A stretch of DNA of 49,966 nucleotides from Anaerolineae bacterium. GTDB lineage: Bacteria; Chloroflexota; Anaerolineae; Aggregatilineales; UBA3940. The stretch is from the NCBI GenBank assembly GCA_016926255.1, contig JAFGOY010000016.1, forward strand, positions 1 to 49,966. The letters are read 5' to 3'. Under the pieces are notes generated by a model. That model was not told the origin of the DNA. It saw only the letters and a list, made by a program, of their open reading frames with translations, and ran no database searches. Of this stretch, positions 3,562 to 38,354 are shown one piece after another (position 1 is the first letter of the stretch; each line of letters begins with the position of its first letter). A program made the position numbers and the translations under genes.

Positions 3562-5574
3562 ATGGGAACCTTTTTGAGCATTGCAGAACTATATGTGGGT
3601 GAAAGTGGTCATAAAAGACGCCGAGATCAGGTTATCACAACACTGAGCGAAGTTGTTGCTAAAGACACGCGTTTCGAAGCGGTCGATAATCCGGCGGATG
3701 CAGACCGCACGATATATATCGGGCCAGCCGACCGCTGGATCGTGGTTGCGGACACCTTTGCATCAAACCGCGATATTGCGCAGATGCTATCGGAGAAATT
3801 TGCCACTTCAGCACTTTCAACCGAAGTAGCAGATAGCGATGTTGCTTTCTATATGCTGTACGAGAATGGAAATCTAATCGATGAGTATAACAGCCGCCCC
3901 GGTATCTATGATGAAGAACCAGAAGAACGTTATGAAGAACTACGTGGTAAGCCAGAGTTGTGGGAACATCTGCTGCTGCCCGATTTCACAACGGATGACC
4001 TGCGTAAAGTCTGGGATTCCCGTCCGCTGTTTGCCGAAGATATTGTCTGGCAGACGGCAAAAATGATTGGCGGCAAGCCCTTCGATCATGAGCCGAATGC
4101 CTGCATCGAGCAATGTGCGCAGTTGTATTTCCGCTACACTGGGCAGCGTCCGCATGAACAAAAGGCAGAAGGCCCACCTAAATTCGAATTGAGCAGCTAT
4201 GGTATGCCCGAAGTAATGTCAGTTGGGGAGACAATGCTTTTACACGTTTCGGCCAATAACCAGGGCGACGCGTCGAAAGGATTGAGTATTGTCGTTCTGG
4301 GAAGTCTAGTCGATCAGGGGTGTGTACAGGCTGTTAAGGCCAGAATCAGCCATTGTGATACTAATCAAGAGTATCAATTCGAATCATTAACCACGCAGAT
4401 TGACGAACGCGAAGCGCAGATCAGGCGGATTTTACTTCCCGATTTCGAAATTCAAGTTGGCAGACCACGTGAAAATCTCACACAGGAAGAATACCACCTG
4501 TTCGGCATGACTGACTTCAGAACAAAACTCCACGAGGCGGTCAGCATCAATCTATCGGTTGAGGCGATCAAACCCGGAAGTGGTGAACTGTATGTGGTAT
4601 TTATTCCTTTCGCCAACCCGGAGTCTGGTCAGGCTGTATACCATACTGAGATGGAAATTTCCTCCACTCCTCGAAAGCCTTTGAAGTACGCCGAAAGAGG
4701 GGAACATTTTGAATCTGCACTGATGCGGGCACTGCGTGATATGGAAAGTGATCGGCAGTTCTTTGTGATGGCGATCTTTTCTGAACCAGCCGAAGTGGTG
4801 AACGAAGACGTAGCTTCGCTAATCGTCAAGTGGCATGAAGCCGTTGGGGGTGACCATCCGCTCATGGCCTCGATCTCGTCCGAAAGGCCGTCACTACCTG
4901 ACGAAAGGGCTGTATTGCCCGAAGAGCTAGCCCAGCTAATTTTGAATGCTGCCTCTTTGAGCGATCGCTGGAAAATCGATCCTGACTTCACGGATACTGA
5001 CCAGGAATTTGGTCCACCGATTGGCTCCGATCATGCTGGATACAGTTTTTATCGGCGAACGTTCTCAGCGGAAAAGAAAACTGCCCCGCATCTTATTCTG
5101 TGGGTCGATACACGGACAATCGACGACAAACTTTTGGAACGCTTGCGGGAATTAATTATCGTTTGGATGGACGATTTCGCACGGAAAGGCTGGCTGCTTC
5201 AGGCATATTGTACAGCATGGAGGGATGCCCCATGGATGATTGAATCAACACCCTACGAATTAGCCTGTGATATTCATGGACAGGTAACTACGACTATCGA
5301 CTGGTGCAGTAGATTCCTGCGGATTGTCTCAGAAAGGATATGGTTAGGGGCGGATCTGCTTGAGCGCATACCGGACCGTGATTTGCTAAAAAATATCGCC
5401 AGTGTTACCGAATTGGGGGATGCAGCCCGTACTGAGTTGAACCTAGGCAGTACTCTCAATCAGCTTGAAGAGGCCTTAGAAAATATCTTGCCAACAGGTG
5501 AGGACTGGGCGGAGGTAAAGAATCAATTACTCAGTGATCACAGCATAATGAGAAGGTTTATGAAGAGGCAGTAA
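3562..5574 (+). CDS. large hypothetical protein, 670 aa
   Basis: ATG at 3562 follows GGGAGG, 48 nt after the propeller lipoprotein stop, so the two may be cotranscribed. No signal peptide or membrane segment is visible, so it is probably cytosolic. The first 200 residues contain VADSDVAFYMLYENG, DEYNSRPGIYD and FAEDIVWQTAKMIGG. I recall this arrangement from uncharacterised bacterial proteins but cannot name it. The middle is a beta-rich region, then a helical C-terminal third with a possible leucine-rich coil (LNQLEEALENIL). Codon use and base composition are more AT-rich than flanking genes, suggesting different history. No catalytic motif recognised. Confidence 0.8.
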   Translation: MGTFLSIAELYVGESGHKRRRDQVITTLSEVVAKDTRFEAVDNPADADRTIYIGPADRWIVVADTFASNRDIAQMLSEKFATSALSTEVADSDVAFYMLYENGNLIDEYNSRPGIYDEEPEERYEELRGKPELWEHLLLPDFTTDDLRKVWDSRPLFAEDIVWQTAKMIGGKPFDHEPNACIEQCAQLYFRYTGQRPHEQKAEGPPKFELSSYGMPEVMSVGETMLLHVSANNQGDASKGLSIVVLGSLVDQGCVQAVKARISHCDTNQEYQFESLTTQIDEREAQIRRILLPDFEIQVGRPRENLTQEEYHLFGMTDFRTKLHEAVSINLSVEAIKPGSGELYVVFIPFANPESGQAVYHTEMEISSTPRKPLKYAERGEHFESALMRALRDMESDRQFFVMAIFSEPAEVVNEDVASLIVKWHEAVGGDHPLMASISSERPSLPDERAVLPEELAQLILNAASLSDRWKIDPDFTDTDQEFGPPIGSDHAGYSFYRRTFSAEKKTAPHLILWVDTRTIDDKLLERLRELIIVWMDDFARKGWLLQAYCTAWRDAPWMIESTPYELACDIHGQVTTTIDWCSRFLRIVSERIWLGADLLERIPDRDLLKNIASVTELGDAARTELNLGSTLNQLEEALENILPTGEDWAEVKNQLLSDHSIMRRFMKRQ

Positions 5575-32573: not shown

Positions 32574-33371
32574 ATGGACGATTTAATTCTACAACAGGCT
32601 GATTGCACACAGGAACCCGGCCCAAACTGGCAGCGCCTGATGACCGGCGGCAGCCGTCTCGACGTGACAGGGGCGGGCTGGCGATTTGTCAACCTGCCGG
32701 TTGGCGAAGGACATTATACCAATGCCCAGATCGACGATTACGAGGGGCTGCGCCGCCGGGATTTTCTGTGGAGGCCGCCGCTGCGATTGACCGTCCGGGC
32801 GCGGTTCTCGCACAACTCCGGCGATCTGACCGGCACGGCGGGGTTCGGCTTCTGGAACGATCCCTTCATGATGACCGGCTGGCGGGTGCCCGCTCTGCCG
32901 CGCGTGCTCTGGTTCTTCTACGCCTCGCCGCCCTCGAATATGAAGCTCGATTTGAGCACGCCCGGCAGCGGCTGGAAAGCCGCCGCGCTCGACGCGATCC
33001 GGCTGCCCTTTTTCCTGCTCGCCCCGACCGCCCCGCTCGCCATCCCGCTGATGAACATCAGGCCGCTGTACCGGGCGCTGTGGCCCATCGGCCAGCGGGC
33101 GATTGGCGTCGGCGAGGCGCTGCTTGATGTCGATATGACTGGCTGGCACACCTACACAATCGAATGGCGCAAAAAACGGGCCAGCTTTTTCGTCGACAGC
33201 CGCCCCGTTCTCGACTGTGCCGCGCCGCGCGGCCCGCTTGGTTTTGTGATGTGGATCGACACCCAATCGCTGATCGCCACACCCTGGGGCCGGTTCAAAT
33301 GGCAGGCGCTCCCCCTCGACCGCGAACAGTGGATGGAAGTCGCCGATCTGCGGATCGACCGGCTGGGTTAA
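32574..33371 (+). CDS. concanavalin-A-like/GH16-like protein without catalytic motif
   Basis: 265 aa; ATG 32574 follows GGAGG. No signal peptide. SRLDVTGAGWRFVNLPV, ARFSHNSGDLTGTAGFGFWN and WHTYTIEWRKKRASFFVD-SRPVLD are the strand patterns of GH16/LamG-type jelly-roll lectins (the latter is the familiar Y-x-I-E-W...FxVDG motif). The catalytic ExDxxE of GH16 is absent, so it is probably a binding protein or structural relative. A hydrophobic middle section (LPFFLLAPTAPLAIPL) is unusual. It ends tail to tail with the lipoprotein gene, sharing the bases TTAA for both stops. Confidence 0.7.
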   Translation: MDDLILQQADCTQEPGPNWQRLMTGGSRLDVTGAGWRFVNLPVGEGHYTNAQIDDYEGLRRRDFLWRPPLRLTVRARFSHNSGDLTGTAGFGFWNDPFMMTGWRVPALPRVLWFFYASPPSNMKLDLSTPGSGWKAAALDAIRLPFFLLAPTAPLAIPLMNIRPLYRALWPIGQRAIGVGEALLDVDMTGWHTYTIEWRKKRASFFVDSRPVLDCAAPRGPLGFVMWIDTQSLIATPWGRFKWQALPLDREQWMEVADLRIDRLG

Positions 33372-33943
33372 TTCAGCGTTTCCATACTTTCGACGATCCC
33401 CTGGTAGATCGGCAGGTTCGTATCGAAAGTCTGTCGCGAATAATCAGAGGCGAAAACCAGGATCGCCTGGTTTTGCTGCATCACCACGCCAATAAACTCG
33501 CCCTCATTGAAATTCTCGTCGTACCCAAAGGCGCAGATCGCGTCGCCGGCGGCGGACTGCAGCGGTCTGGTTTCGTAGGGGATGTCGTAGAGCACATACG
33601 ACAGTTCGGTGATGATGTCTTCGAGTAGCTGTGTCTTGTTCATGCCGGGGGTAAACGTCATCTCCCAGTATTCGGGGGCGGTGGTTTCGTCAAACAGGTA
33701 TATCTCGATATAGCCTTCGCCAGCTATCTCGAATATGTCGAAATTGTCGTAGTCATACCAGCTGATCTCCCAGCCGTTGGGCCGGTAGGTACTGATGTTC
33801 ATGTCCCCATTGTCGTAGCGCAGCCCGCTGCCGGGCACGCCCGCCGATGGCTCTGCGCTGCTGCCCAGGCCGGGAACGCTGCATGCCAGTGTCGATATGA
33901 TCAGGACTGCCAGTGCTACGATCCATATCTTCCGTTTGCTCAC
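33368..33943 (-). CDS. lipoprotein translationally coupled to the Ser/Thr kinase
   Basis: 191 aa starting at GTG 33943, which overlaps the kinase stop in GTGA; GGGAG lies upstream. The frame is open further back but only inside the kinase gene. Signal sequence with lipobox STLAC (Cys about 21). The mature part is small, acidic and aromatic-rich: NGWEISWYDYDNFDIFEIAG, EIYLFDETTAPEYWE and FGYDENFNEGEFIGVVMQQNQAILVFASDY. It resembles small PsbP-like or DUF1795-type lipoproteins only loosely. Coupling to the kinase suggests it may act as accessory sensor or ligand-binding partner. Confidence 0.82.
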   Translation of the reverse strand: MSKRKIWIVALAVLIISTLACSVPGLGSSAEPSAGVPGSGLRYDNGDMNISTYRPNGWEISWYDYDNFDIFEIAGEGYIEIYLFDETTAPEYWEMTFTPGMNKTQLLEDIITELSYVLYDIPYETRPLQSAAGDAICAFGYDENFNEGEFIGVVMQQNQAILVFASDYSRQTFDTNLPIYQGIVESMETLN

Positions 33944-35682
33944 TGTTGATCTCCCTGACTTCTCTGTATCGCATCCCCATCGACGAGCATCCACGAGCCG
34001 TCGGCAGCCAGGGCCACTTCGTACTTTTCCCAGGTCAGGGTTTCGTCGCAGTTGACTGCCTGCATATCCCATTTGCCGCTGGCGATTGCAATGGTGAACT
34101 GCCCGCCGGGTGTAACAACCTGGCCTTCCTCCATTTGATTGAGCGCCCATATCGTGTCATCTGGCGAGGAAACGAAGAATTTGCAGATATTGTAGCTGGT
34201 CTGGTTTTCGAGTGTGAACGTCAGGGCCCTGTCCCGGATCACCCAGCTAAACCAGGGGCCATCGAAAACAACCCCGGCATGAACATCGAGCATGTTGTTG
34301 CCGCAGTCGTCGGCTATATAGTCATATTTACCATAAGGGATATCGGTCAGTGTGTAGGATTCCCCGGTACGGATGACCTCATCTGCGCCAAGCCGGTTGT
34401 CTCCCCATTCGTCGTCGCTGTTCAGTGAAACATACACGGCACAGATCGTCACGCTGCCCTGGTTGACGATCTCCAGCGAGGTCGTTCCCTGATCGACCTC
34501 CGGCGTATCGGTCGGCTGGGGCGGTGACTCCGGCGTCTGGGTCGGAACCGGGGTGGGCGTCGTGTCGAATACCCCCGATGCACCCATGATGAAGAACCCG
34601 CCGACGCAAACTGCCAGCAGGACGAATATCCCGCCGATCACCAGCCCGATGCCGATACTGCACCCGCCGATGGTCACCCGCCTGCCTTTCGGCTGCGGTG
34701 CAACGGCGGCGGTTGGGGGTGGCGTGGCGGGACCTGCCGGGGTATCAACCGGAGGTGGTGTCATAGGAATAGCATCGGTCAATGGGGCGGTCAACCCGGC
34801 GTCGAAGGCCCCGACTGCTTCGCTGCCGCTGGATTCGATCGCCTGCCGCAGCGCCGACGCCAGTTCGCCTGCCGTTTGATAGCGGTTCTCCGGGTCTTTT
34901 GCCATCGCCTGGTTGACCACATGCGCAATCGCCGGAGAAAGCTCCGGCCTGATCATCGAAACGTCGGGCACCGGTTCGTTGACGTGTGCCAGCAGCACGC
35001 TCAGGGGCGTCTCGCCGGAGAAGGGATAGCTGCCGGTGAGCATCTGGAAGAGCGTCACTCCCAGCGCGTAGATGTCCGCCTGGGGCGTCGTCCTGGCGCT
35101 GCTTGCCATCTCCGGAGCCATGTATGCCGGGGTGCCGACGATCCCTGTGCCGGTAAGCTGGATCGTCGATTCGCTGATCTTGGCGATCCCGAAGTCGGCA
35201 AGGTGGGCGTTGCCATGTTCGTCGAGCAGGACATTGCTCGGCTTGAAATCGCGGTGGATCACCCCCTTCGAGTGGGCATGATCCAGCCCTTCGGCGATCT
35301 GCTCGACCATCCGCAGGATTTCGTCGAGCGGCATCGGCCCGGAGGCCATCCGGTCGGCGAGCGTGCCGCCCGACATGTGAGCCATCACGATGTAGGGCCG
35401 CCGGTTGTACTCACCGTAGTCGTAGACCGGGAGAACGCGCGGGTGCTGGAGCTTCGAGATCACCTGCACTTCGCGTTCGAAGCGCTGCATAAAGGTTGCA
35501 TCATGGGTGAAGTTCGGCGGGATGACCTTGATCGCCACCGTCCGCCCGATCGATTTTTGCCGGGCCAGGTAGACGGTCGCCATGCCACCTTTCCCAAGTT
35601 CCCGGATGATCTCGTACTGCCCGATGGTCTGCCCGATCAGTTCATCTTCGTTTGGCTGTGATTGCTCATCGGCCATTTGCAT
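33940..35682 (-). CDS. Hanks-type Ser/Thr protein kinase with duplicated extracellular domain
   Basis: 580 aa from ATG 35682 (a GTG at 35685 and ATG at 35673 are alternatives). The kinase domain covers ~20-285: GKGGMATVYLA, catalytic Lys in AIKVI (about 53), HRDFKPSN (about 144-151), DFG (about 164) and APEM. It is followed by a Pro/Thr linker. A membrane helix lies at about 338-368. The outside part has two similar ~80-residue units (about 402-484 and 487-570). Both carry IV(N/E)..S...IC..(Y/F)VS.., a Trp, G.Y.L/F.I and a second cysteine. A PP2C partner is encoded in the same window, and an FHA histidine kinase is divergent. Confidence 0.95.
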   Translation of the reverse strand: MQMADEQSQPNEDELIGQTIGQYEIIRELGKGGMATVYLARQKSIGRTVAIKVIPPNFTHDATFMQRFEREVQVISKLQHPRVLPVYDYGEYNRRPYIVMAHMSGGTLADRMASGPMPLDEILRMVEQIAEGLDHAHSKGVIHRDFKPSNVLLDEHGNAHLADFGIAKISESTIQLTGTGIVGTPAYMAPEMASSARTTPQADIYALGVTLFQMLTGSYPFSGETPLSVLLAHVNEPVPDVSMIRPELSPAIAHVVNQAMAKDPENRYQTAGELASALRQAIESSGSEAVGAFDAGLTAPLTDAIPMTPPPVDTPAGPATPPPTAAVAPQPKGRRVTIGGCSIGIGLVIGGIFVLLAVCVGGFFIMGASGVFDTTPTPVPTQTPESPPQPTDTPEVDQGTTSLEIVNQGSVTICAVYVSLNSDDEWGDNRLGADEVIRTGESYTLTDIPYGKYDYIADDCGNNMLDVHAGVVFDGPWFSWVIRDRALTFTLENQTSYNICKFFVSSPDDTIWALNQMEEGQVVTPGGQFTIAIASGKWDMQAVNCDETLTWEKYEVALAADGSWMLVDGDAIQRSQGDQQ

Positions 35683-35799
35683 CACCTTTTCCTGGATGTG
35701 GTGGAGATTCCTTCGCGTAACGTTCCTGAGTAGTTTGCATCACACGGCGGCCTGGCGCAAGTGAGAGTGCTGGAGAATCCAGGAAAATGGCTGTGGAAC

Positions 35800-35828
35800 T
35801 TGTCCCCGGTTCAGGCAGGTGCTATAGT
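35800..35828 (+). promoter_or_regulatory. promoter of the FHA histidine kinase gene
   Basis: TTGTCC (35800-35805) and TATAGT (35823-35828) are separated by exactly 17 bp, placing the start point near 35835. This lies inside a possible longer reading frame beginning at 35787 and so supports the ATG at 35886 as the real start. Confidence 0.68.
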
Positions 35829-35885
35829 AAGCAGACCGGGACTACGTATTGCCTTTCAACACGACAGATGGGGAGTAGGTGGAGA

Positions 35886-38354
35886 ATGGCCGGCGATTCA
35901 GATCAACCGCGAAAAACTGTAACCGATCGTCTGACTGCTGAAGACCTCAGGGACATGTCTTTTATCGAGCAGGAGATCACCTTTCGACCGTTTCCGGATG
36001 CCAGACCGCCGGAGGCGAAAAAGGCGATCAACTGGCGGGTGCGCTTCGATCTGGCTACCGATTCCAGCGTCCGCTTTGGCCTCGATATCAACGGTGATGT
36101 CACCCTGGGGCGGGGCGGTGAAACACTCAACACTATCGACCTGTCTCCCTACCGCGCTGACGAATACGGTGTGTCACGTCGGCATGCTATGCTGCGCCCA
36201 TCTTCTACTGCACTCTACCTCGTCGATCTGGGCAGCACCAACGGTACGCTGCGTAACGGCCAGTCGATAGGGGTCAACACGCCGTTTTCGCTCTCGAACG
36301 GCGATACGATTACACTTGGGCGGCTTCAGTTCGTCGTCTGGATCATCGACCGGCCTTCCGGTCGAACCCGTGCGTTGGAGAAAAAGGCCGACCTTGCCGA
36401 TGCGCTGGCGCAGGTTGGTAAGGCGATCACCTCACAGCTCGATCTCGACGCAGTGCTCAATCAGGTCACCGAAGCGGCGATGACGGTCACCGATGCCGGT
36501 GAAACCGGTATCTGGCTGGTCGATGAGGAAACGGGCGAGCTGTTCCTTGAGGCGCAGCACGGGATCGAAGACGAGAAAATCCAGCGCATGCGAATCCCGA
36601 TAAGTGGTGATTCTCTGGCGGCGAAAGTGATCAAGACCGGCAAACCGCTCCGCGCCAGCCGCCAGCCCGGTGAAGCGCAGATCAAAATCAAGACCGGCTA
36701 TCTGGTCGAGGCGCTGCTCTATGTGCCGATCACCCTGGGCGGGGTGACCTTCGGCGTGCTGGCTGCTGCTCACCGGGAGGAGACGGTTGGCTTCAGTGAT
36801 CGCGAACTGCGTCTGCTCGAAGCCATCGCCGATTTCGCCGCGATTGCCATCCAGAATGCACGCACCTACCGCTCGACCGACCAGGCGCTTGCCCGGCGTG
36901 TCGAGGATTTGATGGCCCTCAACGAACTGTCGTTTGCCGTATCGACCTCGCTCGATCTGGACTATATCCACAAGGTGCTGATCGAGAAGCTGCGCGGCTT
37001 GAAAGAGATCGAAAACGCGGTGCTGTGGCTGGTCAATCGAGAGAACGGCAAACTGGAACCCTACAATCAATCCGAACAGATTAGCGAGTTGATCCACCGT
37101 ACCGGTGACCAGATTCCAGATGTTGTCAAAACAGTTGTCGATAAAGAGGCGCCGGTCGTCGCCGGTTTCCTCGATATGGATCAGGCGTTTCAGGAAGCCG
37201 ACGGTCAATCGACTTCCACCGTCAAGGCCAAGTCGCTGGTGGGGCTGCCCTTGCTGGCGAAGGAATCGACCATCGGTGCGCTGGCGCTGATCGCGCGGCG
37301 TGGCGTGATTCAGGATCAGGACCTCGCCCGCTTGCAGGCTTTTGCCAACCCGGTTGCGGTGGCGATTGAGAACGCACGGCTCTATGCCCAGGCCGAATAT
37401 GCCCACGCAACTATCCTTGCCACTGCCGAAACCCTTCCCCAGCCGATGCTGATCCTCGACGACCAGGGCCGGGTGCTGCTTGCCAACCAGTCGGCCAACG
37501 AAATCCTCGAGAAGCATATGTCCCAGCTCTTCGAAGGGATCAGCGAAGGGGTCGGCAGGACAACCGAGATCAAGATCGACAGCAGTACCTACCTGGCGAC
37601 GATTGAACACTCGACGACGGTGGGGACGATTGTGGTGATGCAGGATATTACCTATGTCAAAGAGCTTGAAAAAGAACAGTCCGAGATGGTGCGGGCGCTG
37701 TCGCATGATCTGAAAAGCCCGCTGACGTCGGTCAAGGGTTGGGCGCAGCTCGTCAAGCAGGTTTCTGAGTTGGATGATCGACCGGCGGGGTATGTCGAGC
37801 ATATCATCGATTCTGCCGACCGGATGCTGTCGATGATCTCCTCGCTGCTGACAAGTGCGACGGCCAGCCGGTCGGCCCGGTTTGTGCGTGCGCCATGTGC
37901 TTTAGAAGAAAGCGTAACCAGGGCCATCGCCGACCTGCGCGGCGCGGCGCTTGCCAAGGCAATTTCGGTCGAGATGACCGTCACCGGGATTCCGTACAAG
38001 ATCATCGCCGATTCGAGCCGTCTCTATCATCTGGCGCTTAACCTGGTCGATAACGCGATCAAGTATTCGCCGAAGCATACGACGGTCAACGTTGGCGTGG
38101 CGTATACCAACGCCGGTGTCACATTGTCCGTTGCCGACGAAGGAGAGGGTATTCCGGAGGATGATCTGTCCCGTATTTTCGACCATCACTACCGGAGCGA
38201 GAAGCACTCACACCTGTCGGGGACGGGCGTGGGTCTGACCATCGTCAAGGCGGTTTCTAAGGCCCATGACGGTGACGTGATCGCTGCGAACCGGGCTTCG
38301 GGCGGCGCGATCTTCACTGTGAAGCTGCCCGCCACCCTGCGTTCTGACGAGTAG
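35886..38354 (+). CDS. cytosolic hybrid-domain sensor histidine kinase: FHA-GAF-GAF-PAS-HisKA-HATPase
   Basis: 822 aa. FHA domain at ~55-150 (VTLGRGGET, VSRRHAML, DLGSTNGTLRNG), which binds phosphothreonine. GAF1 ~165-327, GAF2 ~338-500, PAS ~505-590 (ETLPQPMLILDDQGRVLLANQSA). HisKA follows with phosphoacceptor His607 in RALSHDLKSPLTS, then HATPase with N box NLVDNAIKYS (N724), G1 DEGEGIPE and GTGVGLTIVK. No membrane segment is present, so it is soluble. ATG 35886 follows GGGGAG-N10. No response regulator is adjacent. The FHA domain next to a Ser/Thr kinase gene suggests phosphothreonine input. Confidence 0.96.
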   Translation: MAGDSDQPRKTVTDRLTAEDLRDMSFIEQEITFRPFPDARPPEAKKAINWRVRFDLATDSSVRFGLDINGDVTLGRGGETLNTIDLSPYRADEYGVSRRHAMLRPSSTALYLVDLGSTNGTLRNGQSIGVNTPFSLSNGDTITLGRLQFVVWIIDRPSGRTRALEKKADLADALAQVGKAITSQLDLDAVLNQVTEAAMTVTDAGETGIWLVDEETGELFLEAQHGIEDEKIQRMRIPISGDSLAAKVIKTGKPLRASRQPGEAQIKIKTGYLVEALLYVPITLGGVTFGVLAAAHREETVGFSDRELRLLEAIADFAAIAIQNARTYRSTDQALARRVEDLMALNELSFAVSTSLDLDYIHKVLIEKLRGLKEIENAVLWLVNRENGKLEPYNQSEQISELIHRTGDQIPDVVKTVVDKEAPVVAGFLDMDQAFQEADGQSTSTVKAKSLVGLPLLAKESTIGALALIARRGVIQDQDLARLQAFANPVAVAIENARLYAQAEYAHATILATAETLPQPMLILDDQGRVLLANQSANEILEKHMSQLFEGISEGVGRTTEIKIDSSTYLATIEHSTTVGTIVVMQDITYVKELEKEQSEMVRALSHDLKSPLTSVKGWAQLVKQVSELDDRPAGYVEHIIDSADRMLSMISSLLTSATASRSARFVRAPCALEESVTRAIADLRGAALAKAISVEMTVTGIPYKIIADSSRLYHLALNLVDNAIKYSPKHTTVNVGVAYTNAGVTLSVADEGEGIPEDDLSRIFDHHYRSEKHSHLSGTGVGLTIVKAVSKAHDGDVIAANRASGGAIFTVKLPATLRSDE

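Follow-up and report, generated by a model that had tools for sequence, protein, structure and literature searches.

A predicted receptor-type Ser/Thr kinase of an Anaerolineae bacterium with an uncatalogued ectodomain of two two-cysteine units from a wider module family

The membrane Ser/Thr kinase gene described here raises the question of what kind of domain the kinase carries beyond its membrane helix, and what that domain does. The gene lies in a window of 49,966 nucleotides, the whole stretch of Anaerolineae DNA that was analysed, where it occupies 33940-35685 on the minus strand and encodes 581 aa from a GTG start at 35685. Note that an ATG three codons in is also workable as an alternative start. 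Specifically, the product begins with a cytoplasmic protein kinase domain (residues 24-270; 34876-35616, minus strand; Pfam Pkinase, 4.2e-55), in which the catalytic motifs VAIK, HRDFKPSN and DFG are all intact. One transmembrane helix is predicted from hydropathy in the region of residues ~341-370 (34576-34665, minus strand), the most hydrophobic 21-residue stretch beginning at residue 346 with a mean of 2.7. A Pro/Thr-rich linker, read directly from the sequence (residues ~373-400; 34486-34569, minus strand), is presumably located outside the membrane. The remaining part consists of two two-Cys beta-sandwich domains delimited by alignment, a family HMM and AlphaFold2, namely unit 1 (residues 401-484; 34234-34485, minus strand) and unit 2 (residues 485-570; 33976-34233, minus strand). 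The gene product probably belongs to the receptor-type Ser/Thr kinases that cross the membrane once, and within these to the PknB group.

A sequence-only reading of this locus had proposed two tandem two-Cys units at residues 402-484 and 487-570, and the duplication was borne out with the borders given above. The two units, ~80 residues each, gave a local alignment score of 89 (BLOSUM62, gap 11/1), whereas 5000 shuffled versions of unit 2 scored 25.7 on average (SD 4.8) and 59 at most. Their cysteines occupy matching positions, and the family HMM hits each unit separately. The N, C, W-G, G, D, C framework of the two-Cys family is complete in unit 1, and unit 2 has WA for WG. Structure prediction by AlphaFold2 likewise modelled the tandem as two separate six-strand beta-sandwiches and not as one single domain (mean pLDDT 94), with a pTM of 0.62, indicating that the relative orientation of the two units is not fixed in the model. 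Unit 1 modelled alone reached a pLDDT of 97 and a pTM of 0.86. Among the matches listed by VIA-align, the top one was the luminal domain of HGSNAT (Z 9.1, rmsd 2.0, 82 residues), followed by the VHL beta domain (Z 8.6 to 7.9, rmsd 2.2-2.3 over 76-78 residues), although Z values of 8-9 are barely higher than those that common arrangements give. The best Foldseek match of a single unit was an uncharacterised Eubacterium rectale protein with an E value of only 2e-3 (TM 0.65), so that the fold match may reflect a mere common arrangement, and a viral fold library gave no match below E 1e-3 for the unit. With this reservation, the predicted beta-sandwich of the unit is similar to the VHL beta domain (PF01847) and the HGSNAT luminal domain across nearly its whole length. 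However, VHL has an elongin-binding alpha domain that the kinase units do not have, and the likeness to HGSNAT is one of fold comparison only.

No match covering the kinase units was obtained in Pfam, NCBIfam or the PDB sequences. The Pfam search found no model for the units and no single unit above any Pfam cut-off, and PDB sequence searches with the ectodomain region and with profiles as queries gave nothing significant. PHROGs likewise gave nothing convincing for the unit, and a literature search, in which the domain was not found described, returned unrelated papers and general reviews, such as those on kinases with PASTA domains. The unit represents a genuine domain family for which the libraries checked (Pfam 2025 and NCBIfam 2026) have no entry.

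We next consider the cysteine pair. Across 108 distinct units in which both positions could be aligned, 90 had both cysteines, 18 had neither and none had a single one, which argues for a disulfide within each unit. The co-occurrence is associated with a Fisher p of 7e-21, a value inflated by the relatedness of the units. On a tree built without the two cysteine columns, each column required nine parsimony changes, and wherever independent pairs could be drawn from well-supported branches, three in all, the two cysteines changed together (sign test, p 0.25). Note that this tree comprises 77 columns and is poorly resolved, and that three pairs are too few to reach significance. Paralogues in one genome also differ as pairs, with both cysteines in L073 and neither in L070. 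An intra-unit disulfide is the best explanation of the all-or-none cysteines, and the disulfide suggested for each unit by the sequence-only reading is supported, at the level of sequence, by this co-occurrence.

More distant relatives of the unit were found as short stand-alone proteins in other Chloroflexota classes, a Beijerinckiaceae genome and Eremiobacterota. They keep the N...W...G...D framework and have a different cysteine pair, of which one member precedes the YD motif and the other lies in the final strand. Comparison of these relatives with the two-Cys units by hhalign gave a probability of 98.8 and an E value of 5.9e-17 over 68 columns. A tblastn search from one of them reached records of Nostoc, Sulfitobacter and Shinella that are either labelled hypothetical or carry no annotation, and five stand-alone relatives scanned against Pfam and NCBIfam returned no model. 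The stand-alone hypothetical proteins of other Chloroflexota classes, Pseudomonadota, Nostoc and Eremiobacterota are thus homologous to the unit and share its framework, but they are not fused to other domains and use another cysteine pair. Relatives lacking the cysteines or having the alternative pair extend to Pseudomonadota and other phyla, those outside Chloroflexota being known from scattered matches. In the Beijerinckiaceae MAG, two distinct stand-alone relatives are adjacent (L092, 3848-4258 on the plus strand and 4373-4873 on the minus strand), one of them with the alternative cysteine pair.

When the ectodomain was used as query, four further carriers emerged in the window's genome, with up to five copies each: lipoprotein-like proteins of 544 aa (five copies) and 573 aa (four copies), and a 377-aa protein and a clostripain-family protein with one copy each. 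Only one of the 33 kinase-domain matches in this genome carries the unit. The unit was present in 19 of 60 relatives searched, and at the scale of the phylum 18 of 400 genomes, including the window's own, matched a 34-row unit profile. Its Pfam partner domains are matrixin, trypsin-like protease with or without PDZ, clostripain, class A penicillin-binding protein, and a zinc ribbon with a marginal SH3. The carriers other than the kinase look secreted or membrane-bound (lipoproteins, matrixins, clostripain, trypsin-like proteases and the penicillin-binding protein), their lipoprotein signals having been taken by eye from the sequence and not with a prediction tool. In three proteins (L039, 1060-1956; L041, 217-1104; L014, 3533-4663; all on the minus strand) the unit is followed by Cys-rich CGDGxC repeats of a different kind. 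The unit family is a general module of predicted extracytoplasmic character and not specific to kinases. Since most copies sit on non-kinase proteins, 'sensor' describes a possible role in this kinase and does not define the family. The earlier proposal of a new sensor domain family therefore holds as to a family without a Pfam or NCBIfam model, but not as to a kinase-specific sensor.

Eight relatives from the same family were sampled, and six of them have a kinase with a C-terminal pair of units; the assemblies of the remaining two are 65% and 75% complete. The catalytic motifs are intact in all seven orthologous kinases. Identity to the window among the orthologues is 56-73% for the kinase domains and only 20-48% for the units, and an ectodomain with a binding role would be expected to diverge faster in this way. 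The convergent neighbour of the kinase (32574-33371, plus strand), which has a sub-threshold glycosyl hydrolase 16 match only, is common to the window and the four relatives G007, G008, G001 and G002, supporting the orthology of the kinases. Directly downstream of the kinase and overlapping its end is a lipoprotein-like ORF (33368-34150, minus strand) with a LACS box, which lacks the unit and is matched by neither Pfam nor NCBIfam. A two-unit lipoprotein takes its place directly downstream of the kinase in G002 and G003. On the other side, a gene for an FHA-GAF-GAF-PAS-histidine kinase (35787-38354, plus strand) is divergent and back to back with the Ser/Thr kinase gene.

The general view of bacterial Ser/Thr kinases of the receptor type is that dimerisation, driven by the ectodomain, switches them. 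We consider it probable, with moderate confidence, that the present protein is such a receptor kinase, whose disulfide-pinned VHL-beta/HGSNAT-like pair outside the membrane binds a partner, with dimerisation driving the signalling. The part of the kinase predicted to lie outside would then consist of the Pro/Thr linker and two disulfide-pinned beta-sandwich copies. Members of the unit family would serve Anaerolineae-type Chloroflexota as extracytoplasmic modules that probably mediate adhesion or bind ligands, and that are either built into many surface proteins or secreted alongside them. The likely partner of the pair in the kinase is a protein of the envelope or the extracellular space, or a glycan, and partner binding would favour dimerisation or clustering and thereby trans-autophosphorylation.

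The units might instead be divergent copies of a named domain, that is, VHL, a CarboxypepD_reg/CnaB-like domain or ATS3, which we regard as very unlikely. The VHL candidate was prompted by the similarity of the unit fold to VHL beta. A VHL-domain protein in a bacterium is the subject of one paper (PMC9002001). VHL homology was rejected on sequence, however, as no VHL match was found in 34 scanned units or in the window's genome and profile comparison with VHL gave a probability of ~1%; a human VHL beta stretch used as query matched PDB VHL chains over the full length with E 6e-64. CarboxypepD_reg/CnaB-like scores on Cys-less relatives were sub-threshold, the best being 29.5 bits against a cut-off of 32.3. 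The whole-protein ATS3 score (PF06232; plant embryo-specific protein) of the five-copy paralogue (L012, 4449-6080, plus strand) exceeds the cut-off (42.5 versus 27 bits), but none of its stretches passes individually, the alignment takes in only 32 of the 125 profile positions, and single units reach E 0.05 at best. Every single unit is below all Pfam cut-offs.

Two further alternatives concern the function of the tandem. PknB / Stk1 PASTA kinases (NCBIfam NF033483) share with the window kinase a cytoplasmic kinase domain, one transmembrane helix and then repeated small domains. NF033483 scored 325.3 bits over the kinase-to-membrane part, below its 450-bit cut-off, and the outside part of those kinases consists of PASTA repeats whereas that of the window kinase has two predicted two-Cys beta-sandwich units. 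As stated in the earlier reading, the units are not PASTA; no PASTA match (PF03793) occurs in the window kinase or anywhere in its genome, whereas nine of 14 control genomes were positive. The unit could be imagined as a PASTA-like wall sensor that binds cell-wall material and replaces PASTA in the kinase and the penicillin-binding protein. Consistent with this, the window's genome has kinase-domain matches and no PASTA match, and a class A penicillin-binding protein of an Anaerolineales MAG (L084, 3-3821, plus strand, ended by the contig edge) carries three C-terminal unit copies. However, that protein was seen just once among the carriers, which are mostly proteases and lipoproteins without an evident wall link, and we find such a sensor improbable. 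We give equally little credence to the related idea that an unnamed VHL-like beta-sandwich family, common to receptor kinase and penicillin-binding protein, reads a cell-envelope cue in Anaerolineae as PASTA does elsewhere. Somewhat less remote, but still unlikely, is that the tandem is a stalk or a set of homotypic surface-adhesion modules without sensing, anchoring the kinase and perhaps pairing with unit-bearing lipoproteins. The small lipoproteins with the same tandem beside the kinase in G002 and G003 favour it, as does the grouping of kinase unit 2 (window, G007 and G002) with unit 2 of the G002 lipoprotein (SH-aLRT 89). Against it, the gene next to the window's kinase lacks the unit, and rapid unit divergence is unusual for a pure spacer, though compatible with adhesion. 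The units may also be only rigid spacers.

The protein is best described as a receptor Ser/Thr kinase whose ectodomain is uncatalogued and comes from a wider module family, for which the label of a kinase sensor domain is too narrow. The all-or-none cysteine pair, together with the alternative pair in the relatives, would nicely illustrate how a disulfide can be gained and lost while the fold stays the same. With a recurrent extracytoplasmic domain of this kind defined, segments of numerous hypothetical proteins, proteases and kinases could be annotated, both in Chloroflexota and outside the phylum. Orphan receptor kinases are many in such bacteria, and one of them would gain a concrete, expressible ectodomain for ligand hunting.
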